Shown here piece by piece: positions 7,792 through 45,933 of a DNA stretch of 64,000 bases (position 1 is the stretch's first letter; each line of letters opens with the position of its first letter). The translations under genes were made by a program, and so were the position numbers. The stretch is from contig ONXC01000001.1 in assembly GCA_900321715.1 (NCBI GenBank), forward strand, positions 146,027-210,026, in the 5' to 3' direction. Source of the stretch: an uncultured Bacteroidales bacterium. Its GTDB lineage: Bacteria; Bacteroidota; Bacteroidia; Bacteroidales; UBA932. The notes beneath the pieces were generated by a model. It saw only the letters and a list, made by a program, of their open reading frames with translations, was not told the origin of the DNA and made no database searches.

Positions 7792-7983
7792 AGGTCTTAG
7801 TGTAATTATGCGTAAATATACAAAGAATTCTCCACTTTTCCATCCTCCCATCCCTATATGGTTCTCCCCGGCTGGTGGAGGTTAACTGCATGATTTTCTG
7901 GTATTTACAGAATCTTCTACCACAATTTATTCTGGTAGAAGATTCTGTAAACAACTGAGAATTAATGACTTGGCCTCCACCCG
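7792..7983. other. Intergenic region upstream of ettA
   Basis: No gene is seen. The part next to ettA should carry its promoter, but no clean TAnnTTTG box was found. The rest is occupied by a nested palindrome (7904-7951, with outer GGTGGAGG/CCTCCACC arms around 7873 and 7975), and the inverted repeat begins at about 7984. Confidence 0.6.
7904..7951. repeat. Palindrome with 19-bp perfect arms
   Basis: The arms 7904-7922 and 7933-7951 are perfect reverse complements (TTTACAGAATCTTCTACCA) around a 10-nt AT-rich loop. A second short complementary pair (GGTGGAGG near 7873 with CCTCCACC near 7975) encloses it, so the whole stretch of about 110 bp can fold as a long hairpin. No T tract follows, which argues against a plain terminator; a MITE-like element or a large operator are alternatives. 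Confidence 0.7.
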
Positions 7984-8027
7984 ATTCTGCGCCACGGGCG
8001 GCTACGCCGTTTGCCACCCTCGCTGCG

Positions 8028-8162
8028 GGAAGCATTGGTGTCCAAACCCTTCGTTCGCTTCGCTCACTTCGTCCCTCCCGTTCGTCCGTGCCAAGCACGG
8101 CCTCCAGGCCCCTCCCGCTCATGAAGCCGCGGGCGGCTACAGGTTTGGACACCAATGCTTCC
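8028..8162. repeat. Palindromic element, copy 1 (intergenic)
   Basis: A 135-bp element bounded by a perfect 21-bp inverted repeat (8028-8048 with 8142-8162, containing GCATTGGTGTCCAAACC). The interior holds ttcgcttcgctcacttcg, a ccgtgccaagcacgg hairpin, and the family right half (ggcccctcccgctcatg, then acaggtttggacacc). The right half matches the copy inside folP, and the whole element matches the copy at 11842-11977. Confidence 0.85.
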
Positions 8163-8176
8163 CATCCGCTTATGGC

Positions 8177-11756: not shown

Positions 11757-11841
11757 GCGGTGCACACCCTAGCGACTGCGGGGCAATGATTCACACGTTT
11801 TGGGCCGATTATGCCCATTTCATTGCCCGCCACAAGCGGAG

Positions 11842-11977
11842 GGGGAGCATTGGTGTCCAAACCTGTAGCCGCCCGCGGCTTCATGAGCGGGAGGGGCCCG
11901 GAGCGCGCGCGAAGCGCGGCGAACGGGAGGGACGAAGTGAGCGAAGCGAACGAAGGGTTTGGGCACCAATGCTCCCC
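11842..11977. repeat. Palindromic element, copy 2 (intergenic)
   Basis: A 136-bp element with 22-bp terminal inverted repeats (11842-11863 with 11956-11977, one mismatch). The outermost bases (GGGGAGC) differ from copy 1 (GGAAGC) yet still pair with each other. Interior blocks match copy 1 in reverse complement, including the ggggcccctcccgctc-type right half and the ttcgcttcgctcacttcg stretch. Confidence 0.85.
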
Positions 11978-12029
11978 GCAGCGAGGGTGGCAAACGGCGT
12001 AGCCGCCCGCGGCTCAGAATTGGGGGAGA

Positions 12030-28404: not shown

Positions 28405-29325
28405 ATGATTCACGTAATGGGCATCATCAACCTGACGCCGGACTCGTTCTATGCGGGGAGCCGGACTGCAGCGTGTGACTTTATGTCCAAAGTGCGTCAG
28501 ATGCTCTCTGACGGGGCCGATGTAATAGACATCGGCGCCTGCAGCACCCGCCCCGGCGCCCCCCGGCCCTCTATTGAAGAGGAATGGGCCCGCCTGGAAC
28601 CGGCGCTTTTGGAGATGGCACGGAACACCCCTCCGGGGGACTCCGGTCGCTTCGCTCCCTCCGGCCCCTCCCACTGCCATAAATGCCGGATTGGAAGCAA
28701 GCTTCCATCCGTCCCTTCTGTCAGCGGGCCCCTCCCTCTAATGCGGCCGAGGGTGGCCACAGGTTTGGACACCTGTGTCTCCACCGCAATATCCATAGAC
28801 ACGTACCGGCCTGAGATAGTCCGGAGGGCTTTTGAGATTATTGGGCCGTTCATTGTGAACGACGTTGGCGGAGGCTCTTCACAGATGCTTGAAACCGTTG
28901 GAGAACTGGGGCTTCCATACATTGCCATGCACGGCCGGAAGCCGCAGGGAGATGTCATTGAGGACATCCTGGACTTTTTCAGGGACTTTGCCGTGAGGGC
29001 AGAAGCCAACGGTGTAAAGGAGTGGATCCTTGACCCGGGATTCGGTTTTGGGAAAGACATTGACCAGAATTACGAAGTCCTGAACCGGCTGGATGAACTA
29101 AAAAAGGCCGGAAGGGATATCCTGGTGGGCATCTCCAGGAAGAGTATGATATACAAAAAATTAGGCATCACCCCGGAAGAGGCGATGCCTGAAACACTGG
29201 CCCTGGAAAGGATTGCCCTTGAGAAGGGCGCCACCTGGCTGAGGGTTCACGACGTTCCGGAAACCGTACAGATGGTGAGAGACTACTCCACTATGTATAC
29301 GTCGTCTCCCGGGGCGGCAAAGTGA
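28405..29325 (+). CDS. folP: Dihydropteroate synthase with an in-frame 55-residue repeat insertion
   Basis: A 306-residue FolP that condenses dihydropterin pyrophosphate with p-aminobenzoate in folate synthesis. Family motifs are all there: MGIINLTPDSFY at the N-terminus, GADVIDIGACSTRPG, ISIDTYRPEIVRRAF, NDVGGG, LDPGFGFGKDIDQNY and ILVGISRKSMI. Between LLEMA and AISIDTYR about 55 extra residues (71-127) rich in Pro, Ser, Gly, Cys and Arg are encoded by a palindromic repeat. Without them the core is about 250 residues. The site is the helix-2 to strand-3 loop, on the barrel face away from the active site, which may explain tolerance. The ATG at 28405 is chosen because the family N-terminus begins there. 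The 3' end overlaps the convergent ftsB-like gene by 43 bp. Confidence 0.9.
   Translation: MIHVMGIINLTPDSFYAGSRTAACDFMSKVRQMLSDGADVIDIGACSTRPGAPRPSIEEEWARLEPALLEMARNTPPGDSGRFAPSGPSHCHKCRIGSKLPSVPSVSGPLPLMRPRVATGLDTCVSTAISIDTYRPEIVRRAFEIIGPFIVNDVGGGSSQMLETVGELGLPYIAMHGRKPQGDVIEDILDFFRDFAVRAEANGVKEWILDPGFGFGKDIDQNYEVLNRLDELKKAGRDILVGISRKSMIYKKLGITPEEAMPETLALERIALEKGATWLRVHDVPETVQMVRDYSTMYTSSPGAAK
28621..28787. repeat. Palindromic element, copy 3 (in frame inside folP)
   Basis: About 165 bp interrupting folP without breaking the frame. It shares ctccggcccctcccactgcca (28659-28679) and ctgtcagcgggcccctccc (28718-28736) with the tilS copy, and the right part ending in acaggtttggacacc with copies 1 and 2. 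The right end folds as CACAGGT/ACCTGTG with a 6-nt loop. The left terminal arm is not recognisable, so the left boundary is set from the protein. Confidence 0.8.
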
Positions 29326-44193: not shown

Positions 44194-44805
44194 GTGCTCC
44201 TTTCCACGGCATACTTTCCGCCGGTCCAGTGGTTCGCCCTGGCGGCACGCGACATGCAGGCCTCACTGGAGGCCTGCGAGCGTTATCAGAAGCAGAGTTA
44301 TCGCAACCGCTGCTACATCCTTGCCGGAGACGGCGTCCAGATGCTGCAGGTCCCAGTGGTCCATAAGGCCGATATGTCCATCCGTGAGGTCCTGGTGGAT
44401 TATTCCACGCCATGGGTAGTGCGCACCGAGCGTGCCCTTGATACGGCATACGAGAACGCCGCTTTCTATGAGTATTACCGGGACGGCCTGTTTGAAATCC
44501 TTGACTCTGAGCCGGAGCGCCTGTGGGATCTTAACCTTGGGCTCATCCAGTGGTGCCTTCAAAGGCTTCATCTGCCTTGCTCCATAGAGCCCACCACCGC
44601 TTTTTCGACGCCGGATTCAGTGGCTGATGATTACCGCTTCCTGGTTCACCCAAAGCACCCGGATACAGTTATGAAGGACCTTGGCCTTGACAGGCCCTAT
44701 TACCAGGTTTTCCGTGACCGTATGGGCGGTTTCACCCCCGGCCTTTCAATCCTTGATTTACTCTTCAACGAGGGTCCGGACGCGGTAGATTTTCTTTGTC
44801 CGTGA
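44194..44805 (+). CDS. WbqC family protein
   Basis: A 203-residue protein matching the WbqC family: STAYFPPVQWFALAARD at the N-terminus, YQKQSYRNRCYILAGDGVQML (typical QKQSYRNR motif), and DLNLGLIQWCLQRLH. The family is found near O-antigen and polysaccharide genes and is thought to act in surface glycan synthesis, without a proven reaction. The position after lpxA fits an envelope role. Its last 48 bp overlap the convergent tilS gene. Confidence 0.83.
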   Translation: MLLSTAYFPPVQWFALAARDMQASLEACERYQKQSYRNRCYILAGDGVQMLQVPVVHKADMSIREVLVDYSTPWVVRTERALDTAYENAAFYEYYRDGLFEILDSEPERLWDLNLGLIQWCLQRLHLPCSIEPTTAFSTPDSVADDYRFLVHPKHPDTVMKDLGLDRPYYQVFRDRMGGFTPGLSILDLLFNEGPDAVDFLCP

Positions 44806-45933
44806 CGTGACTTTCACGCCGTTATCAATGCAGTAGGGGATTACTGCCAGTACGTGATGAGGGTCTGAGGCCGATTTAAGAAGCGGCACAAACGGCTTTT
44901 CATCGGCAGGAATGTGGTGGTCCGTGAACCAGTCCTGCATCTTTTTCCGCCCTGGCGCCCCAAGCGGCTTTATCCAGTCCCCCTGCTCCCACTTACCTAT
45001 AATATATTCTCCCGCTTTATCGGCATCCAGAATCAGCACCCCTTCCGGCTGCTTCACCACCTGCGTCCCGTCCCAGGGCTCTTCGGAAATTGTATAATCA
45101 AGGGTAGGGGCAGGAGATATACTCCTGGGGAACTCCGTTCCGCTTCGCTCCACTCCGGCCCCTCCCACTGCCAAATGTGCCGGACCGGGAGCAAGCTCCC
45201 TGTCCGCCCCATCTGTCAGCGGGCCCCTCCCCCTACCCATGTGCGGGGGTGCACATGTCCCCAGGAGCATATCTCCTGCCCCTGCAGATTCAATTTCCGA
45301 AGAAATCCTTTCCATATCACGGTTCAGGACCTCCACGAAGCGGGGGTTGATTTCACGAAAGACGGGGAAGACGAGGTTACGGATCTTGTTGCGTTTATAA
45401 TCATTTAGGGCATTTGTGGCATCCTCACGCCAGGAAAGGCCGTTTTCTGCTGCAAAAGCCTCAATGTCTTCACGGGTCATGCCAAGAAGCGGCCTCAGAA
45501 GGGGGACATCGGCAAAATCCGGATCCGGGATAAAGCCGCTGGCTTTCATGCCGATGATTCCACGGACTCCGGTGCCGCGGAGTAGATTCAGGATGAGGGT
45601 CTCGGCGTTGTCATTGGCGTTATGCGCCACAGCAACGCCGGAGTAGCCGTGCTCCCGGCACAGCTCCCCAAACCAATGGTAGCGGAGCCTCCGGGCTGCC
45701 ATCTCTATGGAAATGCCTTCAGAGGCGGCATAGGCCGATGTTTCAAAGCGCTTTACGTGGCAGGTGATGCTATGTCCGGCAGCCCAGGAGCGCACAAAGG
45801 TTTCATCGCCGTCGGAATCGGCCCCTCTCAGGCCGAAGTTGCAGTGCGCAATGGCAAAAGGTTCGCCGCTTTGGCGAACCTTTTCTGCAAGGCACATTGA
45901 ATCAATGCCTCCGCTTACTGCAACAAGTAGCAT
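44758..45933 (-). CDS. tilS: tRNA(Ile)-lysidine synthase with an in-frame repeat insertion
   Basis: A 391-residue TilS, which turns C34 of tRNA-Ile(CAU) into lysidine so that it reads AUA. The PP-loop is AVSGGIDSM at residues 5-13, and HNANDNAETLILNLLRGTG is the second signature; the C-terminal domain includes GAPGRKKMQDWFTDHHIP. Between residues near ERISSEIESA and TLDYTISEE about 59 residues rich in Gly, Pro, Arg and Ala are encoded by a 176-bp palindromic repeat with 25-bp arms. The insertion sits between the catalytic and C-terminal domains. Without it the protein would be about 332 residues. The frame extends upstream, but MLLVAVSGG at 45933 is the natural start. Confidence 0.9.
   Translation of the reverse strand: MLLVAVSGGIDSMCLAEKVRQSGEPFAIAHCNFGLRGADSDGDETFVRSWAAGHSITCHVKRFETSAYAASEGISIEMAARRLRYHWFGELCREHGYSGVAVAHNANDNAETLILNLLRGTGVRGIIGMKASGFIPDPDFADVPLLRPLLGMTREDIEAFAAENGLSWREDATNALNDYKRNKIRNLVFPVFREINPRFVEVLNRDMERISSEIESAGAGDMLLGTCAPPHMGRGRGPLTDGADRELAPGPAHLAVGGAGVERSGTEFPRSISPAPTLDYTISEEPWDGTQVVKQPEGVLILDADKAGEYIIGKWEQGDWIKPLGAPGRKKMQDWFTDHHIPADEKPFVPLLKSASDPHHVLAVIPYCIDNGVKVTSRTKKIYRVRTLVEE
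45107..45282. repeat. Palindromic element, copy 4 (in frame inside tilS)
   Basis: 176 bp with 25-bp terminal inverted repeats (45107-45131 with 45258-45282, one mismatch). The interior shares ctccggcccctcccactgcca (45153-45173) and ctgtcagcgggcccctccc (45213-45231) with the folP copy. The right end has a CATGTGC/GCACATG hairpin with a 6-nt loop, equivalent in place and size to the CACAGGT/ACCTGTG hairpin of the folP copy but different in sequence. It is translated on the opposite strand from the folP copy. Confidence 0.88.

Follow-up and report, generated by a model that had tools for sequence, protein, structure and literature searches.

The tilS locus and its element

The window, by which we mean the whole stretch of 64,000 nucleotides analysed here, carries tilS on its minus strand, and within this gene lies an element with terminal inverted repeats whose parts are listed in Table 1, together with three further copies of the same family. 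The arms are 26 nt long and complementary at 25 of 26 positions; when one extra mismatch is allowed, the span becomes 45104-45285. In a seed-and-extend search (arms of at least 20 nt, spacer 20-300) it was the longest of four inverted repeats in the window. The tilS frame (44758-45933) crosses the element without a stop, and the plus strand is also open there. A sequence-only reading made earlier had described a near-perfect inverted-repeat element inside tilS, in frame and open in both directions, and all of this was confirmed.

Table 1. Positions in the window of tilS, of the parts of its element and of the other family copies
Feature	Position	Strand	Remarks
tilS (tRNA(Ile)-lysidine synthetase)	44758..45933	-	Carries the element in frame; Pfam ATP_bind_3 and TilS_C
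Element, class A copy, 178 bp	45106..45283	.	TilS residues about 218-276
Left arm	45106..45131	+	Self-pairing stem, locus-specific sequence
5' conserved core segment	45132..45167	+	ACTCCG..GCTTCGCTCC..CGGCCCCTCCCA
Internal variable hairpin	45168..45220	+	At other loci exchanged between copies with the same arms
3' conserved core segment	45221..45238	+	GGGCCCCTCCC + CCTACCC
Proposed pseudoknot side CCCCC	45229-45233		Within the 3' conserved core segment
3' hairpin	45239..45257	+	ATGTGC-GGGGGT-GCACAT
Loop GGGGG of the 3' hairpin	45245-45249		Would pair with 45229-45233
Right arm	45258..45283	+	Reverse complement of left arm, 25/26
folP copy, matching part	28631..28740	+	A/B hybrid, paired arms lost
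Third copy	8026..8164	+	Arms include AGCATTGGTGTCCAAACC; pseudoknot pair G-C
Fourth copy	11841..11978	-	Arms nearly as in the third copy, internal hairpin different

Single strands of the element fold better than all 200 dinucleotide shuffles (z of -7.6 for the plus strand as RNA and -7.8 for the minus strand as DNA). Searched with the tilS copy only, Rfam gave a best score of 23.9 bits against a gathering threshold of 87, so that a known RNA family was not matched, and no paper describing the family was found among openly licensed PMC papers.

In an AlphaFold model of TilS (41 sequences), residues 225-274 have a pLDDT below 50 and are flanked by two better predicted parts; the insert overlaps this region, in keeping with the earlier suggestion that the site is a tolerant one. 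Conservation of the insert in unrelated TilS proteins would have counted against the earlier reading; an alignment of 30 genes showed it to be absent from TilS in general. That reading also proposed a comparison of tilS with and without the element in related strains. Of 12 short-linker TilS genes read, six carry the family in the linker (five with both arms, one with half), in both orientations, and two others hold different palindromes. A short linker is seen in TilS of this clade (L056-L067), and most of the others aligned (L068-L085) have a longer middle region.

Distribution and classes of the family

The tilS and folP copies share blocks of 21 nt (45153 and 28659) and 20 nt (45212 and 28717) in the same orientation, which supports the earlier assignment of both to one repeat family. 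R1, a covariance model of the core built from 23 sequences, gave 29 matches in this genome (G000), 1-30 in each of 13 relatives (E 0.01) and 22-37 in each of four nearer relatives (E 0.001), an average of about 20 matches per genome over the 18 genomes counted, the 17 relatives having been selected for closeness. With stricter filters and 198 genomes of the order, R1 matched this genome and two of the 197 others; of these two, one comes from its own family and the second from a different one. A DNA search covered 61 genomes, among them 36 further members of the genus and 24 genomes of other families; it found the element in 21, all of the same genus, and in none of those 24. The element is thus nearly confined to one genus of Bacteroidales. 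All genomes compared are probably metagenome assemblies.

Copies are about 100-195 bp long. The junctions and the 3' hairpin distinguish two classes, A and B, and the window holds two copies of a third form. In the folP copy, which no longer has paired arms, the 5' half belongs to class A and the 3' half to class B; a complete class-A copy stands at the same place in the relative G288, where the flanks are 94 and 88% identical. No frame over 154 aa in the frame list spans the third copy. We also observed that the third and fourth window copies, with their near-identical arms and differing internal hairpins, are part of a larger shared repeat.

Arms that pair without a shared sequence

Between loci the core is conserved and the arms are mostly unrelated in sequence, yet the arms pair over about 27 nt. 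This was quantified on 53 non-redundant class-B loci, obtained by dropping 4 of 72 copies for weak pairing and then 15 of 68 for similar arms; selection used the first 18 arm positions, and positions -19 to -28 were not used. Pairing runs at 0.57-1.00 from -1 to -28 and falls to 0.17-0.42 from -29 to -40, and no position from -6 to -28 carries more than 0.63 bit of sequence information. Strong sequence sharing across loci is found only at the junction (AAACC). Terminal inverted repeats, taken as an arm score of at least 14, are present in 94 of 107 copies. The search form used gave no copy at 43 of 110 loci (L146-L255), either because the copy had already been counted or because the motif differed; these two causes were not separated.

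Arms can also travel with the core: seven copies in genome G061 have common arms. Six of these also agree in one or both flanks of a larger repeat, and the seventh (L200) agrees in neither. Fast concerted drift of both arms was set aside, since orthologous arms can be identical where the flanks are only 87-95% identical (L208/L262 with flanks at 87%, L177/L450, truA, L431/L454); the 25 conserved-arm clusters described below were picked by an arm identity of at least 0.8 and therefore give no evidence against drift. Insertion into ready-made bare palindromes was likewise rejected: 13 such palindromes in 553 kb and, with other settings, 49 in 766 kb were found, none judged arm-like. How arms that are stable at many sites and mostly unrelated between sites nevertheless remain paired is an open puzzle. 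A bare arm-like palindrome, CGCTCCGGAGG..CCTCCGGAGCG, was seen without a core in truA of another genome (G019, locus L096) and is perhaps a remnant.

The 3' hairpin and the proposed pseudoknot

Pairing in the 3' hairpin is kept in nearly all copies through alternative forms (GGCC/GGCC, GTCC/GGAC, GTGC/GCAC, GCCC/GGGC); one listed form, AGGCC/GGGGT, breaks it. The variable base X of the upstream side (CCC-X-C) and Y of the loop (G-Y-GGG) are T-A at 113 sites, C-G at 30, G-C at 5 and T-T at 1, so that three pair types give Watson-Crick pairing at 148 of 149 sites, where 62% would be expected if the two varied independently. In an earlier set, where X was limited to C or T and Y to A or G, the pair was broken in one copy of 154. 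Class identity inflates the count; further changes are provided by the G-C sites and by class-B copies with C-G (L124, L174). Covariation of this kind, with T-A, C-G and G-C pairs, supports a putative pseudoknot in the core.

Stop codons and host reading frames

By the terms of the sequence-only reading, stops at the random rate in copies elsewhere would count against it. For 158 copies, core and arms together have 2.87 of six frames open, against 1.97 in Markov controls, and the core alone has 4.41 against 3.94. Stops are therefore below the random rate overall; the effect is moderate and does not extend to every frame, as in one antisense core frame openness falls short of the control (0.28 against 0.57).

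Copies neither seek nor avoid genes. We defined a long frame as one of at least 200 aa with 30 codons on either side of the copy; 109 of 154 copies lie within such frames. For positions drawn at random from the same loci the figure is 108 of 154, and a preference for genes as targets is not supported. By orientation, 55 copies are sense, 54 antisense and 45 without a long frame (random positions 58, 50 and 46), and with this random-like placement there is no sign that the element acts through the mRNA of its host.

Among 19 copies read in this genome, 17 have a spanning frame of at least 220 aa, and 15 of the 17 spanning proteins have Pfam hits. The hosts named in this way are dapF, an M20 peptidase, ksgA, truA, metG, folP, tilS, a radical SAM protein (which we take to be YgiQ), a GT2 glycosyltransferase, a SpoU methylase, a THUMP-like protein, TPK, an alanine-racemase-N protein and a TrmB-like methyltransferase. 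No Pfam hit was obtained for two spanning frames, and one hit (DHDPS) belongs to the neighbour; for DHDPS, SpoU and TPK the domain sits beside the element.

Empty sites and turnover between relatives

In the stretches of G288 that were compared, an orthologous place was found for 14 of the 19 copies. Five of these places show little difference, apart from an altered right arm in one of them, one has the same arms and a reversed core, five have different arms, and the remaining three are the complete folP copy, an empty ksgA site and a remnant. The remnant, at the aminotransferase locus (L446, opposite L417-1535), is 46 nt long without a core and has an apparent class-B left arm ending in AACCG; at this place our genome has a class A copy and G246 a class B copy.

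At ksgA, the family is present in G000, G246, G204 and G379 and absent from two genomes, and the remaining six of the 12 genomes hold other inserts. The G288 site (flanks 93 and 96% identical) reads GAGACCAAAGGCCCGGTCCTGG, and that of G244 (flanks 95 and 98%) is the same but for two bases. Neither contains arm sequence beyond GACC/GGTC, and because of this the arms do not look copied from the target, with the reservation that the two sites may be losses. Indeed G288 and G244 may have lost the element, since G246 and G204, which are less similar to our genome, have it with related arms; that the absence represents either the original state or a clean loss is our inference. The target duplication, to be sought at empty sites according to the sequence-only reading, was looked for at ksgA, the only clean empty site though perhaps one left by loss, and none was visible; other unoccupied sites were too diverged to be read.

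Palindromes unrelated to the family were also observed. In relatives, the linkers of ksgA, truA and tilS (L107-L119, L091-L098, L060, L062) contain unrelated in-frame palindromes at the same positions, including GTCATTCTGAGCGAAGCGAAGAATC and GTCATGCCCGGCCCCGACCGGGCATC types. Another apparent palindrome family starts with TTAC or TTAT, ends with GTAA or ATAA and has variable stems, such as TTACAGAATCTTCTACCA..; it was seen at 7902-7953 of the window and at L416 9372, L418 17754 and L427 9065.

Reversal and exchange of the core

The 154 copies gave 212 pairs with alignable flanks on both sides, and these contain 25 clusters with conserved arms, one of them a repeat within G061. Two of the 12 pairs classed as replaced (L429/L453, L421/L440) had arms too short to compare. 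In five of the 25 clusters the core is reversed, in each case between species: at the TPK locus, YgiQ, ksgA, an unnamed gene (L152/L215) and a gene that is presumably truB-like, where the flanks are only 76% identical. The TPK locus, with a reversed core that is 99% identical, is the one plain inversion among the five; there the element sits on the 5' margin of the frame, and in G288 no frame spans it. The inner part is also altered in the other four clusters, and exchange rather than plain inversion may therefore explain them. At ksgA, YgiQ and the unnamed gene the host frame is kept both ways; in YgiQ the peptide coded by the arms is retained (LPEGVS..., SGTDT..SGK) and the middle is read in either direction. 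At L120/L125 the internal hairpin alone has been exchanged.

Interpretation

We interpret the family as a mobile, self-pairing, protein-coding palindrome like the Rickettsia palindromic elements (RPE), recognised as a folded strand and prone to inversion of its core, and give this reading a probability of roughly 0.58. It starts from what sequence comparison can establish, namely the family itself, its pairing signals, presence and absence at one site, and reversed and exchanged cores within conserved arms. An element of about 100-195 bp would insert in either orientation regardless of genes, and copies would survive where the extra peptide is tolerated, by which the element would become protein-coding. 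The recognised form would be the folded strand, with its long arm stem, conserved core and pseudoknotted 3' hairpin, and in the stem pairing would count for more than sequence. Because the arms are inverted repeats, the segment between them could be flipped where it stands or traded for its counterpart in another copy, recoding a stretch of the host protein without a frame shift. That the element moves on a single strand is inferred, and its enzyme is unidentified; DNA is a more likely mobile strand than RNA because there is no orientation preference. Recombination between the arms as the cause of core reversal is likewise inferred.

As to the enzyme, Y1 (HUH) genes were found in 16 of 17 genomes and not in G113, which has 30 R1 matches, and no copy flanked a Y1 gene at the 12 loci read among the 41 matches listed. 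A RAYT partner is accordingly not supported. At one Y1 locus (L456) a lone 11-nt core motif lies 0.3 kb away, and by coordinates some Y1 genes are 0.7-4 kb from a copy.

Size, terminal inverted repeats and dispersed copies would all suit an ordinary transposable element of the MITE type, and the G061 copies with common arms fit transposition with fixed ends. The arms specific to each locus do not fit it: most non-orthologous arms are unrelated around a nearly identical core, although orthologous arms can stay identical even with the 87% flanks of L208/L262. As the one clean empty site, which may be a loss, also shows no target duplication and no autonomous relative was seen (only Y1 genes were looked for), we regard this explanation as unlikely. 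Another possibility is that insertion itself produces the arms, by fold-back copying of the target flank in inverted form. By eye, one arm is readable as native in the glycosyltransferase, YgiQ and aminotransferase comparisons, and in 14 of 17 elements the real arms fit the empty site better than unrelated arms; the gains are small and, since several elements share a gene, not independent, though they leave target copying alive. The closest empty ksgA sites hold GAGACCAAAGGCCCGGTC and, unless they are losses, speak against it, as do the common arms of the seven G061 copies, one of which has both flanks different, and we consider fold-back copying quite improbable.

Reversed cores with frames open both ways at three loci, between inverted repeats of inverton size, raise the further question of a dedicated phase-variation system, an intragenic inverton that has an invertase of its own and has been selected for the recoding of housekeeping proteins. 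Such a system has little to commend it when only the junction is strongly common across loci, the element is hosted by core genes (ksgA and tilS among them), and reversals were observed only between species. Beyond the self-pairing protein-coding palindrome that we prefer, a more far-reaching proposal is held only tentatively, as possible rather than probable: that this is a new kind of mobile element, whose pseudoknotted core is inserted, turned and exchanged inside a stem made anew at each insertion, so that self-complementarity rather than terminal sequence defines the ends, and which rewrites essential proteins.

Comparison with known systems

Protein-coding palindromes are best known from Rickettsia. 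The RPE are described as palindromic, about 150 bp long, inserted in frame in unrelated metabolic genes and divided into several families (PMC10969869). Our element resembles them as a dispersed palindromic repeat in frame inside unrelated genes and differs in belonging to a different phylum. It may differ further in arms that are mostly unrelated between loci, a core with a pseudoknot signal, both orientations at orthologous sites and a core reversed inside the same arms; on these points the RPE side is unchecked.

REP sequences share the hairpins; a RAYT reportedly binds REP DNA in single-stranded form and cuts it, and certain REPs are located within genes (PMC3733652). The element is, however, several times longer than REPs with their 20-40 bp, has no common GTAG or CGTC end tag (ends of 107 copies, by reading), and among 12 loci no RAYT-like gene was flanked by a copy. 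With MITEs it has in common its size, its terminal inverted repeats and the lack of a gene of its own, but its terminal repeats are not conserved between loci, no target duplication shows at the one clean site (possibly a loss) and no parent transposon was found, only Y1 having been looked for. Invertons consist of an invertible segment between inverted repeats of 10-40 nt, and in one gut community about half of them intersect genes (PMC11892184). The likeness is a segment in both orientations between the same inverted repeats (five of 25 clusters, between species), whereas the element is a dispersed repeat family with a common core and its hosts include housekeeping genes.

The family offers a dense and changeable case of palindromes in a large genus from gut and rumen, with many copies in core genes, in both orientations. 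Relatives that are 88-96% identical differ by reversal, exchange and loss. The family also provides a natural series of enzymes that have been recoded and presumably still work (KsgA, TilS, TruA, YgiQ, DapF), and poses the question of how the ends of a mobile element stay paired without keeping their sequence. By analogy, no RPE sequence having been compared, the element would resemble an RPE in what it does to proteins and an inverton in having a core that reverses, and we file it as a new variant among the protein-coding palindromes.
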